Shown here: one piece after another, positions 4,245-12,853 of the stretch
How positions within the stretch are numbered: position 1 is the stretch's first letter
Layout: every line of letters starts with the position of its first letter
Assembly (NCBI GenBank): GCA_019058515.1
Contig: JAHPYY010000106.1
Coordinates: forward strand, 1 to 13,815
DNA: 13,815 nt
Source of the DNA: Promethearchaeota archaeon
Lineage (GTDB): Archaea; Asgardarchaeota; Lokiarchaeia; Sigynarchaeales; SOKP01
Direction: 5' to 3'
Program-made: the position numbers and the translations under genes
Notes under the pieces: model-generated
The model's database searches: none
Seen by the model: the letters and a program-made list of their open reading frames with translations, nothing else
Told to the model about the DNA's origin: nothing

Positions 4245-7200
4245 TTATTCTTTTTCATTGGTTAATAATGGGATTTTTTCAAGATTTTCTTTTAAGTCGT
4301 CCATTTTTATACCGATATCGCCGAAACCAAGCCTAAAAATATCATTTGCGATTGCAATCGCTTCTTCATACTTCTCTTGCGCAAGATCGTAATCAGACGA
4401 TTCGATTGCTTTAGTCGCATCGAGTTCTCGGATTTTCAAGCTTTCTTCTAGTTCGATCTTGTATAATTGTCGACGAGTTTCTTCAAGCTCGCTTAACTCT
4501 TTTTTAAGTTCCCAATCTATGGCGATTTTCTGCGCCTTAAGGTAATTTTCTTTTGCGTAATCGTATATTTTTATTTTGGTAAATCTTCTACCCTTTTTTT
4601 TAAGCTTCTTTATAACTTTTTTGGCAGATTTTTCGTTTTTTATCTCAGTTGTGTTAACATTTGATTCAATAGGAACAGAAACAATTTCTGTTTGCTCTTC
4701 TAAACTCAAAAAATACAAATAACATTCGGCGAGAGTTAAAATTATTAATTCTTGTACGAGGTTTTGCTTTTCTTCGGTATTCAAGTTTGTTAGATCGTTA
4801 ACTTTTTGGCTAATCTGGGTGGCTTTTTGTTGGGAAATTGGAACTTGTTCTATAGCAGAAATATCAAGTGGTTTAAGTATACCTTTATCTTTTAATTCTA
4901 ATATTTTGAAAATAACATCATCTCTTCCCTGATTCATTTCTTCAATAGCGAAATTTATTAGTGTATTGATAAAAAAGAATTCTTTTCCAGATTTTGTGAC
5001 CAGTTCGCTTGTAATTCTAACTAACTCTTTGAATTTAGAGTTTTTAAGTCTCTTTTGGTAAGATGTTTGATACACTAATTCGTGCGGTAAAATTATTGAT
5101 ATTTTTAAGATGTTTTCTATTAGCCTTCCCACATCTTTAAAGAAATATAGCTGTCCTCTCCAATTAGGGAGCTGGTTCTTGTGTTTCTCTTCAAATTGAT
5201 TTACAAATTTGTTTAAAAGGTTTCGCAATACCATGGAGGCTGGTTCTGATAACACTAAAGCTGCTCTTACGTATACACCATCAGCTAAAAGCAACTTTTT
5301 GTCTTCGTAGCTTATTTGGTTTTTATCTTTTTGAGTAAATTCTTTTCTTCCATACGATGATATGGTACAAAAAAGACCATCGATTAATTCGGGATTAAAT
5401 CCTTCAGTACTATACGATTTGAAAAAAATACAAGTCCCTGTCTCCTTGTAAAGTACAAGAATATACTCTATATTTGGTGCATCCTTGAAAATTGCCTCTA
5501 TTTCTCTTAGTAACTTTCTTTTATTTCTTCTTTTAGGTGTTATAATAACCTTAATGACGATCATTATGCTAGCTAATCCCCCTGATACCGCTCCAACCAA
5601 GATTAATATAAAGGTTGGAAGCATAAATACCGTTTGTGTAGATTTGTTTAAATTCATTCCAGTAATTTCAATTGGTTTGCTTTCAAATTTGAAGTTCGCT
5701 CGAAGATTGACCGTAATCGCAATTTTTTCCACATCTGAGGTAGTAACTAAATAGAACGACGCAATTCCAGAGTCGGAAGTATTATTATAATATATTGAAG
5801 CAGCTTTATATTTCAAGCAAGTTACTAATTTTACCTCTACCCCTGCTAACGGAAGCCATTTAGAATTATTTCTATAGAGAGCTTTTATTTTTATAACGAA
5901 TTGCTCACCTTGAATAATTTCTGAAGGTATATCGTATAATTCTAACCTCGCTTTGATTTTTTCTTTAATGTTAAAAAGAATAGTTAAGGTAGTGTTTTCA
6001 TAGTTTGGTTTAGTAATGGTAATCGTAACCACAAACAATCCGGTTACGTTTAGTGATTGGCTTAAATTTAAAATACCACTGTGGTACCCATAACTCTCGT
6101 TTATTAGCTCGAATTTAAGATCGTGAAGGATTGAGCCCGTATCGGATGAATTAAATACATTAATATAAGTAATTGAATATTTAGTTTCTCCTAAAACTAT
6201 ACTATCACTAAACTCATCCTCGGTTAAATTAAATATAATAAATACATCAGAATTTACATAAACAGCATAATTTTTGTGATCTTTGTTGACATTAGGTTTA
6301 ATTACCCCACTTGGATCTGCAATTGCTATCAAATTAGCTGAAAAATAACACCCTCGTACATAAAACTTTACTGAAAGCTGCTGATCAGCGTAATTGGAAC
6401 CGGGATCGACATTTACTATGGCGGTGTGCCACCCTATACTTAATCCTTTGATACTAATATCTAAGGAGTAGTTTCCATCGCAATTGTAATCGTGTAAGGT
6501 GAAATTGTGGTCTCCTGCGAGCTTACCCCAAGGCTTCCCGTCTTGGTCTCGCACTGAAACCATTGATGTGTCTAATCCTAATATCAGTTCGTTGGCGGAG
6601 GTATCGTTTATCCTAAATCGAATGGTTTGATTCCCTTGAATGTAAACCGGAATTATAGAGTTATAGGAATCCACAACCAGACTAGTTTGTGCTGCGAGGA
6701 TGGTAAAATTAAGGGTGATTTCCTGCGTCTGACATCCTGGGGAAGATACGTTAAATGTGTAGGAATAATCGCCTATGTTGTTTCCGTTTGTATTTAGACG
6801 CATGGAGTAATTTCCATTGTTCTCTTCTTGAAGCGAAGGATTTAACCCACAATGGTCACTTACATTTTTCCACTCTGCTCCTAATATTGGAGTATAGTTT
6901 GCATCAGAATAGTTAAACACATAGCAAATTTGAAATCCTCTATGGATCGAAGGTAATTGTATAGTATTGTTCGGGGATATGGTAGTAGAAATGGTCCTAA
7001 TTATTCTCAATGTTCTGGTGTGATTAGTGTAAGTACATTTAGAGAGCTTGAGGGTTATATCGCTGTATCCATATTCAACGAAGTCAAGATCGTCAATATT
7101 AACAGTAATATTGTAATTTCCATCTGATATGTCTTTCACATTTTCGTTTAAGGTTTTAAAACTAATTCCTCCATTTAAACTGTAATTTATATCCGCCCCC

Positions 7201-7820
7201 GAAATACCACTATCGACAATTTCGTCGAGATATTCAACCGTAATGTTGAAATTATCACCCTTTCCTGCAAGATATTCCGTATTATTCGCGGGATTTAAAA
7301 TACAAAATGTGGTTTTTCGTATGATCTCTATTAAAATTAAATCTTTATATTCGCTAGTTTCGCGATGAGTTATTGTATTGTAGGAGTAGAAAAAAAAGGA
7401 AAGATTATAGGTAGAGGAGAATTCCGTAAGCAGCAGGTTCCATATCGCTACGGTCCAATTTTCTCTAATACTCCCAGTTTCATTGTTTTTAGTGGAATTC
7501 CAAATTAGGTTGTTATTAAGATCTTTTAATAATATTTGGATATAGCACATTTCGCTCGCAGGATTAAAAAATAAATCCCAAGATGCGTTAATAAAAATTG
7601 AATTTGAGTTAAGATAAATAGAATTATTGGTAGTAAAATCACTCACAAAACAAAATGAGCTTTTCTTCAATCTACTTTCTTCGTAGGTAACCTTATTTTG
7701 ATTGTCACCGAAGTAATGCACTAGAAAAGGGTGGAAAGACGGAACTATTAAAAGAAACACACTAAATGCCACTATTGCTAATACATAGACCCGTCGCTGG
7801 CCTAACCCTTTAACTATCAT
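4245..7820 (-). CDS. Receptor-like type I membrane glycoprotein: repeated beta-sandwich ectodomain, one TM, longin/roadblock-like domain, TPR-like tail
   Basis: About 1191 residues; numbering below counts from a GTG at 7823, but the adjacent ATG at 7820 (Met2) is the more likely start. Residues 12-35 are a hydrophobic N-terminal segment (signal peptide or anchor). Residues 50-725 are a secreted-type region with about 32 N-X-S/T sequons by hand count, against one in the roughly 430 residues after the second membrane segment (732-761), which fixes the topology. The ectodomain has repeated beta-sandwich modules marked by a G-N-Y-S/N-like motif at about 236, 337, 450 and a divergent one near 579, 100-130 residues apart. 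A last module at 625-720 (GVEVKL, then SDSGIASF) resembles bacterial Ig-like domains. After the TM comes RRNKRK (stop-transfer). Residues 785-905 fit a longin/roadblock-like fold, including LILVLYKETG-type and WRGQLYFF segments. About 925-1040 is helical. 1078-1165 is charged and TPR-like or coiled coil. The architecture suggests a surface sensor or adhesin linked to a cytoplasmic small-GTPase-type scaffold. That role is inference; no ligand is known. Confidence 0.8.
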   Translation of the reverse strand: MIVKGLGQRRVYVLAIVAFSVFLLIVPSFHPFLVHYFGDNQNKVTYEESRLKKSSFCFVSDFTTNNSIYLNSNSIFINASWDLFFNPASEMCYIQILLKDLNNNLIWNSTKNNETGSIRENWTVAIWNLLLTEFSSTYNLSFFFYSYNTITHRETSEYKDLILIEIIRKTTFCILNPANNTEYLAGKGDNFNITVEYLDEIVDSGISGADINYSLNGGISFKTLNENVKDISDGNYNITVNIDDLDFVEYGYSDITLKLSKCTYTNHTRTLRIIRTISTTISPNNTIQLPSIHRGFQICYVFNYSDANYTPILGAEWKNVSDHCGLNPSLQEENNGNYSMRLNTNGNNIGDYSYTFNVSSPGCQTQEITLNFTILAAQTSLVVDSYNSIIPVYIQGNQTIRFRINDTSANELILGLDTSMVSVRDQDGKPWGKLAGDHNFTLHDYNCDGNYSLDISIKGLSIGWHTAIVNVDPGSNYADQQLSVKFYVRGCYFSANLIAIADPSGVIKPNVNKDHKNYAVYVNSDVFIIFNLTEDEFSDSIVLGETKYSITYINVFNSSDTGSILHDLKFELINESYGYHSGILNLSQSLNVTGLFVVTITITKPNYENTTLTILFNIKEKIKARLELYDIPSEIIQGEQFVIKIKALYRNNSKWLPLAGVEVKLVTCLKYKAASIYYNNTSDSGIASFYLVTTSDVEKIAITVNLRANFKFESKPIEITGMNLNKSTQTVFMLPTFILILVGAVSGGLASIMIVIKVIITPKRRNKRKLLREIEAIFKDAPNIEYILVLYKETGTCIFFKSYSTEGFNPELIDGLFCTISSYGRKEFTQKDKNQISYEDKKLLLADGVYVRAALVLSEPASMVLRNLLNKFVNQFEEKHKNQLPNWRGQLYFFKDVGRLIENILKISIILPHELVYQTSYQKRLKNSKFKELVRITSELVTKSGKEFFFINTLINFAIEEMNQGRDDVIFKILELKDKGILKPLDISAIEQVPISQQKATQISQKVNDLTNLNTEEKQNLVQELIILTLAECYLYFLSLEEQTEIVSVPIESNVNTTEIKNEKSAKKVIKKLKKKGRRFTKIKIYDYAKENYLKAQKIAIDWELKKELSELEETRRQLYKIELEESLKIRELDATKAIESSDYDLAQEKYEEAIAIANDIFRLGFGDIGIKMDDLKENLEKIPLLTNEKE

Positions 7821-7891
7821 CACTTAGGTTTAAATTCAAAATTACTATTGAGTTAAATATTAAGAGTGTTAGCTTAATAGATACAACTCCC

Positions 7892-9399: not shown

Positions 9400-10301
9400 T
9401 TATAAGCCAAGCAATTTTGCTACGTTATTTCCTAATATTGCATTTTTTTCTTCTTCGGTGAAGTCTTGAGGTCCCATGAGTTTTAATGGAGGAGGAATTT
9501 TCAGCTTCAAATCACCTTAACCCAGTTTTCAAGTGAGAAGATATGGGTGAATAGTGGCCAATCAGAACCAAAGAGAATTTTTTTTATGCCGCACATCATC
9601 TTAGCTTGATACAATCCTTGAATGAATACGGGAAGTGAGTACTTTAAAGCTGGTTCCCAAGCAGATATGTCTAAGTATACATTCGGGTTCTTAACTGCAA
9701 CCGCAAAGGCTTGATTCGTGAAAGGATCCCCCATATGAGCCAGAATTAACTTAAGGTCTGGAAAATCAACTGCGACTGCGTCTACATAGACAGGTTGACA
9801 ATGTTTGAGATAGCTATATTGAGGACCTAACCCCGTGTGAACAAGGATAGGTATGTTTAATTCTTCGGCTCGTCTATAGAAGGGATAAAATTCTTAATCT
9901 TTGGGGCAAAATCCCGTTAAAGTATAGAATTTAACTCCTCCAAATCCTAAGGTTTCTACACTCCTTTCTAACTCCATTATAGCTTCATCTCCCCTCTTAG
10001 GGTCGATGCCTGCGAACCCAATAAATTTATCGGGGTAATTATTTAGAATTTCGGCCACATAGTTGTTATATTCTTTATAACTCAACTCGTGTCTAAACTT
10101 AAAATTTCCATCTAATGCTAATAAAACCGTTTTATCTATACCTGCTTCTTCCATTTCCCGAACCAGTCGTTCAACGCTTCCATCATACACCATTTTAGGA
10201 TCGGGACATTTTAAACTTCTAATCACGGAATCTACGATTTTAACGAAATCTTAGCTAGCAAACCTTTCGTCCCAAATATGACAATGAACATCAATTATCA
10301 T
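9400..10301 (-). pseudogene. Broken amidohydrolase (amidohydrolase-2 / TIM-barrel metal-dependent hydrolase)
   Basis: The frame can be rebuilt from an ATG at 10301 to a TAA at 9400-9402 and would give about 300 residues, normal for the PF04909 family. It opens with MIIDVHCHIW, the metal-binding H-x-H strand. AGIDKTVLLALD, FIGFAGIDP, GFGGVKFYT, IPILVHTG (metal-ligand His), LILAHMGDP and ILFGSDWPLF (the late catalytic Asp) follow in the family order, and it ends ILGNNVAKLLGL. Three lesions break it: TAA at 10251-10253 (after FAS), TAA at 9894-9896 (after CPKD), and a net one-base loss just after WVKVI near 9507-9511, where one extra G would restore WKLKIPP. The two longest intact pieces are 9894-10226 and 9507-9734. 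An AAGGT at 10308-10312 is a good ribosome-binding site six bases before the ATG. With so few lesions, inactivation looks recent; assembly error is the alternative. Confidence 0.85.
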
Positions 10302-11480: not shown

Positions 11481-11569
11481 TTTAAATTTTGTTCGAAAAA
11501 TATGAATTCGCTATGATACTTATTGTATCTCACATATATAAAAATTATTATAGAAGTTTCAGTCCATCA
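11218..11569. repeat. Imperfect direct repeat, copy B
   Basis: Partner of 10630-10970. Its right end lies seven bases before the likely original start of the MFS gene at 11576, so the promoter part of this copy sits between two divergent genes. Confidence 0.85.
11530..11550. promoter_or_regulatory. TATA-like element between divergent genes
   Basis: CACATATATAAAAATT lies on the plus strand about 30-40 bases before 11576, the probable original MFS start. Its complement faces the membrane-protein frame at 11480. It could serve either direction. The plus-strand spacing fits a nearly leaderless MFS transcript, common in archaea. Confidence 0.4.
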
Positions 11570-11575
11570 TATTGC

Positions 11576-12853
11576 ATAACCGAAATTAATAACGACAACA
11601 AAGAAACACCTGACAGGTACTTTAAGTACTTAGTATTCGTATTAATGATCGTCCAAATTCTTGACACATATACGACCGTGTTACCAGGTTCATTTCCATC
11701 GTTGATTGCCAAAGAGTTTCTAAGTGACTTTCCCCCGGATGTGCAAAACTCTATAATGGCAACTGCTGGGGCCTTAGTATCGATAGGAATGTACTATCTG
11801 TTTTTTACGCAATATCTTTCGGATAAATTAAGACATAAGAAGATGCTGACGATAACCGTGTGTGGAATGGGAGTGGCAACTTTGGGAATGATATTATCCG
11901 TTAATTACATGGTGTATATGTGTTTCGTGTTCCTGTTGTACTTCTTCTTTAGTTCTGACATTTGATTGATAATGATCAACGAGGAAGCTAAACCTACTAA
12001 AAAAGCGTTATTCTCGAATCTTTTGTTGATTGTGGGGTTAGTTGGACCCATCTATATGGTGATATTCCGTTTTATTTTCGGGTCAGGTTCTGTTCCAAAT
12101 TGGCGAGGTATGATTCTGTTTCCAATGATATTGGGATTTGCGCTTACATTGGTAATTCTTCTATCGCTAAAAGAATCGTCCAAGTTTCTATTGATGAAAG
12201 AAAACCCTTCTATGAGAGAAACGCGATTCTTATTGGAAGATCTAAAACTTGTGTTCAGTATAGAGAATCGAAAAGCTCTAATAGCAATCCTAATCATGAG
12301 TTTCTTTTTCATGGGCGGTAACATGTATATTGGATTATTTGAAAAGTATATTAGCGATGTCGGAACATTATCCCAAGCTCAAGTAACTATAATTATGCTG
12401 ATAACAATATTTATGGTACTAATCGCGTATCTTACGAACGGATTACTAGCCGATCGGATAGGAAGAAAGCCCTTACTATACCTATGGGTTACAATCTCGC
12501 CAATTTCTGTGTTAATATGGGTGATCGGAGCTACAATTCCTCAATACGCTTTCATTTTAGTATTACTGGGTTATTCATTCTCTCACATCACATTTTGGGG
12601 CACCTTATTTATTCTTAGAATCATAGTATTAGAAAATCTTCCTACTGATGGGAGAGGAACGGGATTAGGTATTAGGAGTTTATTAGGATCTATTGGAAGT
12701 ACGACAGCATTGTTTCTGAGCAATTTATTCATAATTATGGTTGGTCTTAGAATCACCTTCATCATCTTCATAATGACAAATCTAATTCTTATCCCACTTT
12801 GCTACTTTTACATAAAGGAGACTAAGGGCGTTGATTTAAGAACGCTGAAATAG
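11576..12853 (+). pseudogene. MFS transporter, sugar-porter-like, interrupted by TGA
   Basis: One continuous frame of about 425 codons with a single TGA at 11963-11965. The two open parts are 11489-11965 and 11966-12853. Sugar-porter hallmarks are SDKLRHKKML after helix 2, KESSKFLL after helix 6 (compare PESPRWLL), ADRIGRKPLL between helices 8 and 9, and KETKGVDL at the C-terminus (compare PETKGV). About 12 hydrophobic segments are present when the stop is ignored. The TGA falls in SSDI*LIMINEEA, a place where a Trp (TGG) would fit, so a single G-to-A change explains it. The start is also doubtful. The frame can begin at TTG 11489 or ATG 11513, but those residues come from the repeated promoter DNA. 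The natural N-terminus looks like ATA at 11576 followed by TEINNDNKETPDRY, suggesting a lost ATG. Whether the part from 11966 is made alone is unknown. Confidence 0.75.

Follow-up and report, generated by a model that had tools for sequence, protein, structure and literature searches.

The reverse strand of a 13,815-nucleotide stretch from a Promethearchaeota archaeon (contig JAHPYY010000106.1 of assembly GCA_019058515.1, Lokiarchaeia; the whole stretch is called the window) encodes, at 4245..7823, a receptor-like protein of 1192 amino acids (aa) from a GTG start, or 1191 aa from an ATG at codon 2. Here, an ectodomain of Ig-like modules is joined through a single transmembrane helix to a tail that starts with a longin domain. 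Sequence and structure models establish the topology of the protein, its domain folds, the strong conservation of the tail, the single close match per genome and a conserved junction between transmembrane helix and longin. With a confidence close to even, we read the protein as a single-pass surface receptor whose longin tail acts on a Ras-superfamily GTPase.

Hydropathy analysis revealed two hydrophobic segments, one at aa 12-30 (7734..7790), a signal peptide or anchor, and one at aa 739-757 (5553..5609), the transmembrane helix, which is followed by a basic juxtamembrane stretch. The protein contains 33 N-glycosylation sequons, 32 of them ahead of the transmembrane helix (aa 66-726) and a single one beyond it (aa 1057). 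Shuffled ectodomain sequences held 13.1 sequons on average (standard deviation 3.1), hence a 2.4-fold excess that 0 of 2000 shuffles reached, and shuffled tails held 2.5 compared to the one observed. The segment aa 760-775 carries a charge of +6 (mean +3.2 across 84 rows), in agreement with a positive inside. An N-out, C-in single-pass topology is therefore well supported. The original prediction had counted about 32 sequons before and one after a transmembrane range at 732-761 and had called the topology clear; recount, hydropathy, shuffles and charge all agree with it. The protein is probably a sugar-decorated surface protein, with glycans presumably occupying the sequons of its ectodomain. 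The nearest database protein, P0002 (1191 aa), differs at residue 311 only, T in the window and N in P0002, which leaves P0002 with one sequon fewer (window aa 309-311).

An AlphaFold2 (AF2) model of the ectodomain, built on 58 aligned rows, shows five all-beta modules (aa ~171-278, 280-376, 380-503, 518-631 and 635-726), which were grouped by hand from its strand assignments; four or five beta-sandwich modules had been anticipated from the sequence. Together these Ig-like modules (aa 171-726; 5646..7313) hold most of the 32 sequons. Predicted local distance difference test (pLDDT) values per block are mostly 80-95, with dips to 57-70, over aa 168 to ~728. The N-terminal part of the ectodomain (aa 31-167; 7323..7733) is poorly modelled, with pLDDT mostly below 50 over aa 31-165, and among the 25 matches listed the best ectodomain match begins at aa 145 at least. 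Among the best 50 of 1854 Foldseek rows (E 5.8e-15 to 2.6e-11) are tandem Ig, FN3, cadherin, S-layer and complement modules, at low query-normalised TM-scores of 0.12-0.24, which is expected because module strings bend differently. No Pfam domain was found above cut-off in the ectodomains of the window protein (P0001) and five relatives. As modelled, the ectodomain is a generic adhesion or recognition architecture that names no ligand.

The tail model comprises, from N to C, the longin domain (aa 785-911; 5091..5471), a winged-helix-like domain (aa 929-985; 4869..5039), a helical linker (aa 988-1042; 4698..4862) and TPR-like helical repeats (aa 1064-1191; 4251..4634). DSSP assignment of the first domain (E44-51, E57-60, H70-82, E95-98, E101-107, E111-117, H123-139 and H157-165 in model numbering) gives the beta-beta-alpha-beta-beta-beta-alpha(-alpha) topology of longins at block pLDDT 50-86. 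Judged from their titles, all of the best 50 of 904 Foldseek rows are entries containing longin or roadblock proteins, with the longins of AP sigma, zeta-COP, Sec22b and Ykt6 as top structural matches, and VIA Z scores against longins reach 9-10.8 over ~120 residues, a whole-domain match to solved longins. As for a roadblock fold, the model has a helix (23-43) ahead of strand 1, yet a third helix follows the domain. Longins also rank above roadblocks in Foldseek (7yh1 at rank 21), and the best Robl_LC7 value was 0.17, with matches in 2 of 20 members of A2, our longin superfamily profile. Going by the model, the tail domain is a longin rather than a roadblock. Of the longin- or roadblock-like fold first proposed for aa 785-905, the longin half is supported, the model showing longin topology in this very region, and the roadblock half is the less likely one. 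No Pfam family matched the window longin domain at E<=1.

The winged-helix-like domain runs helix, strand residue, helix, helix, strand, with block pLDDT 82-87 over model residues 191-240, and a profile of longin plus winged helix matches other Asgard tails (E 1.7e-30). TPR-like repeats had been proposed to follow the longin directly; TPR-like helices are present in the model, with the winged-helix-like domain lying in between, and TPR_2 is the sole Pfam match of the window tail at E<=10. Searches with the whole protein against Pfam, NCBIfam and PDB sequences gave no informative match, PADLOC gave none for P0001, P0003 and P0087, and against a viral structure library the lowest E, 0.059 for a V-SNARE-type protein of Tupanvirus, stayed above 0.001.

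The survey of Asgard genomes revealed a family and not a single case. A protein search that scored the 7990 best candidates returned 85 proteins at E<=0.001, P0002 among them; all source names that point to an organism are Asgard, and one refers to a metagenome. In the relatives the tail behind the transmembrane helix measures 417-440 aa, with the exceptions of P0003 (763 aa) and of P0081, P0084, P0085 and P0086 (245-348 aa). A genome scan yielded 62 loci. The close set is labelled Lokiarchaeota or Lokiarchaeia; Helarchaeota, Sigynarchaeota, Odinarchaeota, Baldrarchaeota and a bin that bears the name Bathyarchaeota come in with the wider set. At E<=1e-50, profile A5 had one match each in 50 of the 227 Asgard-phylum genomes, in a scan that scored at most 11 candidates per genome. 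By these sequence matches, the receptor family is found mainly in Lokiarchaeia. Close homologues without the membrane junction, named beforehand as evidence against the architecture, were not found: all 37 close loci that could be evaluated have the transmembrane helix directly ahead of the longin. Among wide loci this holds for 17 of 21, and one of the remaining four is masked there. Across the 85 rows the tail has 151 columns that are at least 95% identical. Identity to the window protein is 41-57% for tails (median 44.5) and 24-48% for ectodomains (median 30.7), a pattern that holds in 84 of 84 relatives, all of which also match the window ectodomain.

The longin domain is reused far beyond this family. 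A2 matched 121 of 148 Asgard-phylum genomes at E<=1e-20, and 7 to 130 times per genome in six genomes at E<=0.001. Inspection of translated loci identified ectodomain-transmembrane-longin proteins with two winged helices or with a zinc ribbon, soluble coiled-coil-longin-zinc ribbon proteins, a soluble 314-aa longin-winged helix-turn-helix protein of Odin/Baldrarchaeota, LRR-longin proteins (Pfam LRR_4 at 1.7e-21 in L056, likewise in P0087 and P0092), polytopic membrane proteins with 7-10 hydrophobic segments by hydropathy and a C-terminal longin (L073, L074), a TPR-longin protein (L124) and longin-GTPase single chains (L120-L122). Receptor genes of ~760 aa with ectodomain, transmembrane helix and longin occur three or four per region in L126, L128, L129 and L130, and in L126 and L128 three of them are consecutive. 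LRR-longin, TPR-longin, polytopic-longin and longin-GTPase proteins thus represent one domain recombined onto many inputs.

Ahead of the scan of relatives we had noted a resemblance of the window longin motif to the first longin of MON1/FUZ/HPS1. In 20 A2 members, weak Pfam matches were found to Sybindin (best 0.00098), Fuz_longin_1 (0.0021) and Robl_LC7 (0.17), two each. These sub-threshold matches prove little, since unrelated families reach similar values (GSH-S_ATP in 3 of 20, best 0.0037; Myc-LZ 0.0094). The bridge to FUZ/MON1/HPS1 therefore rests on a genome search with PF19036, which found matches above cut-off in 3 of 6 Asgard genomes (L112 2.7e-10, L113 1.5e-8, L114 4.8e-8) and in none of 14 controls, one of which matched below it, and on the match of L112 to A2 (E 1.8e-9, probability 96.3). 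The window domain itself matches neither PF19036 nor any other Pfam longin model, and its longin claim is therefore one of fold and transitive homology. L112:643-1773 (-) encodes a 377-aa Helarchaeal protein with Fuz_longin_1 followed, by eye, by two longin-like stretches, possibly an archaeal tri-longin of MON1/FUZ type; its source genome holds many frames of 350-390 aa that match A2.

FUZ, MON1 and HPS1 are tri-longin proteins without an ectodomain, whereas the window protein has one longin, placed behind the transmembrane helix. NPRL2 and NPRL3 of GATOR1, a GTPase-activating complex for Rag, combine a longin with winged helices and likewise lack ectodomain and transmembrane helix; the order of longin and then winged helix in one chain is also seen in the modelled window protein. 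A GATOR1-complex chain stands at rank 6 of the tail Foldseek search (323 columns, root-mean-square deviation 19), and P0112 matches HTH_NPRL3 below cut-off (0.0044); no NPRL match was found for the window protein in Pfam. SNAREs begin with the longin, followed by the SNARE motif and a transmembrane segment or lipid. Compared to the longin R-SNAREs Sec22b, Ykt6 and VAMP7, the window protein runs differently, from ectodomain over transmembrane helix to longin, and Pfam revealed no SNARE match at E<=0.1. When PDB sequences were searched with the profiles A2, A6 and A5, no longin came up (best E 0.084, 0.036 and 1.3, respectively); the A6 value is a weak match of its second winged helix to archaeal CheF, in the C-terminal domain (7od9).

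Longins are a domain type that eukaryotes use to control small GTPases and in membrane traffic. Asgard genomes are rich in small GTPases and longins, with 55, 80 and 55 GTPase-model matches in the three Lokiarchaeota genomes examined. In all three, superfamily longins are fused to Ras-superfamily GTPases (Roc model PF08477; Arf-like by eye). In two genomes, a GTPase match lies within 1 kb of 7 of the 47 superfamily matches compared to 2.25 expected, and 13 of 2000 circular shifts gave at least as many. The longin-GTPase fusions account for two of the seven. One locus, L124:2-6048, combines co-directional genes for a TPR-longin protein, a Rab-like GTPase, a 125-aa protein, an MglA-like GTPase (by eye) and an ectodomain-transmembrane-longin receptor. 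A conserved receptor-GTPase operon was rejected as a rule: the eleven further regions L125-L135 (22 receptors of ~760 aa) and L136 and L137, two regions with canonical receptors, have no co-directional GTPase cluster, as defined by a match to seven reference proteins or by P-loop plus NKxD pattern. A Rab-like gene lies ~5 kb off in L131 and a roadblock-like gene ~3 kb off in L125. Rab-like genes 2.2-3.6 kb from the soluble longin gene in L057, L060 and L061 count for little, because the three loci are closely related. Around the close family, 11 of 40 loci carry a roadblock gene and 8 of 40 carry a fusion of roadblock and Ras GTPase. We give these neighbours little weight, since they lie inside a syntenic block with RadA (33 of 41 loci) and an isomerase-like gene (32 of 41; by eye, no Pfam match at 0.01); the 41 loci include the window, which has no RadA block. 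A further locus, L123:1286-6000, carries co-directional genes for a Rab-like GTPase, an 880-aa longin protein with a nitrilase-like C-terminus, a JAMM-like protease and a ThiF/E1-like protein, hence a GTPase-longin-ubiquitin-like cluster by names given by eye.

According to the receptor reading, the N-glycosylated Ig-like ectodomain, with its N-terminus outside, would meet a ligand, a partner cell or an envelope component. The tail longin, probably as a dimer, would bind a Ras-superfamily GTPase and alter its nucleotide state or location, and the winged-helix and TPR parts would gather partner proteins. GTPase binding, dimerisation, ligand and direction of signalling are what we infer; the GTPase step is plausible for the window protein, if unproven. 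The transmembrane signalling or trafficking receptor originally proposed is supported in its architecture, and its role remains a proposal. Several observations speak against a GTPase-directed receptor. The longin part of the model is of moderate confidence, and its Foldseek search has no match at E<=0.001. Within 2 kb the GTPase count is 7 of 47 compared to 3.71 expected, with 157 of 2000 shifts reaching it, so that the excess is unclear. Among the 23 receptors of ~760 aa in the regions read, only one (L124) is clustered with GTPases, and the window yielded no GTPase gene, with 0 of 6 other open reading frames scanned matching and none seen by eye among the translations. The roadblock and roadblock-GTPase neighbours may be there for other reasons, and longins also function in SNAREs and coats. 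Lastly, the window copy departs from 45 of the 151 near-invariant columns, the most of the 85 rows.

The window copy is also set apart in the tree, which pairs it with P0003 (support 99/96) on a long branch of 1.21 compared to 0.035. A genome that carries a canonical copy (G138) encodes an MFS_2 protein 82% identical to the neighbour of the window gene. The window gene may be a paralogue or a fast copy, and its constraint may have relaxed or its role changed; despite the divergence, the model still predicts its longin fold. Elsewhere in the window, an MFS transporter frame at 11489-12853 (+) is broken by an in-frame TGA at 11963-11965 (second part MFS_1, 1.7e-12), possibly a pseudogene, a sequence error or recoding, and a short amidohydrolase-like frame at 9894-10226 (-; 110 aa, Amidohydro_2 3.6e-7) is apparently truncated.

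In an unlikely but serious alternative, the protein is a trafficking or cargo adaptor that clusters or sorts envelope cargo into vesicles or protrusions, its longin working like adaptin sigma/zeta-COP or like the regulatory domain of a longin-SNARE and exerting no GTPase control. The top structural matches of the tail longin fit this, as do the Asgard chains that combine longin with Vps28-C, adaptin appendage, TPR, IG-like and HTH/PCI domains, described in the part of PMC10936438 that deals with them. The tandem Ig modules, which are of the adhesion or S-layer type, would also suit an adhesion or envelope protein whose tail merely dimerises and docks to the cortex via its TPR part, with the longin as a structural dimer module. 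The ectodomain does vary in length, the transmembrane helix lying at about 739 to 1451 among relatives with a predicted N-terminal hydrophobic segment, and tail length is near-constant. However, the tail is conserved above the ectodomain, and the existence of soluble LRR-longin, TPR-longin and longin-GTPase chains also argues against this role, which we regard as quite unlikely.

The modelled winged-helix-like domain at 929-985 could make the protein a membrane-tethered transcription regulator, and soluble relatives match HTH models below cut-off (HTH_AsnC-type 0.0038 in L057; HTH_47 0.0003 in P0112). The putative recognition helix (aa 967-979) is slightly acidic, with a mean charge of -0.94 over 85 rows, which weakens this reading; we regard it as highly improbable. 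In trafficking complexes, moreover, winged helices double as protein-protein modules.

Roadblock and longin proteins are described as dimeric platforms that often bind small GTPases, in passages of PMC10933270 that also report longins as common in Loki, together with longin-GTPase and longin-TRAPPC3 chains; the text of this paper does not contain the word "transmembrane". Corresponding passages elsewhere count 41 longins, five of them fused to Arf-like GTPases (PMC4917890), list a "longin domain" and an "NPRL2-like longin domain" for L. ossiferum (PMC9834061) and list longins in two further lineages (PMC11291895). The window protein resembles the multidomain chains of PMC10936438 in joining a longin with TPR-like, IG-like and HTH-like parts, but those chains are ESCRT-related, and the section on them mentions no glycosylated ectodomain-transmembrane-longin receptor. 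As far as these passages go, Asgard longins appear in the literature as soluble regulators, as fusions with GTPases or in ESCRT-related chains. Titles and abstract beginnings yielded no description of an ectodomain-transmembrane-longin receptor, although the 2021 Nature survey of Asgard diversity may mention one.

A family present once per genome, with a longin right beneath the membrane of a glycosylation-prone surface protein, offers an entry point to ask whether Asgard GTPases respond to the cell surface, and through the profile bridge to FUZ/MON1/HPS1 phylogeny can test where eukaryotic longin regulators came from. A distinct if doubtful possibility is a whole class of single-pass surface receptors in Asgard archaea. 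Each genome would hold several of them, with exchangeable glycosylated ectodomains sitting on a shared longin-winged-helix cassette that handles Ras-superfamily GTPases, and MON1/FUZ/HPS and NPRL-type regulators would come from the same stock. If true, receptor-coupled small-GTPase signalling would predate eukaryotes.

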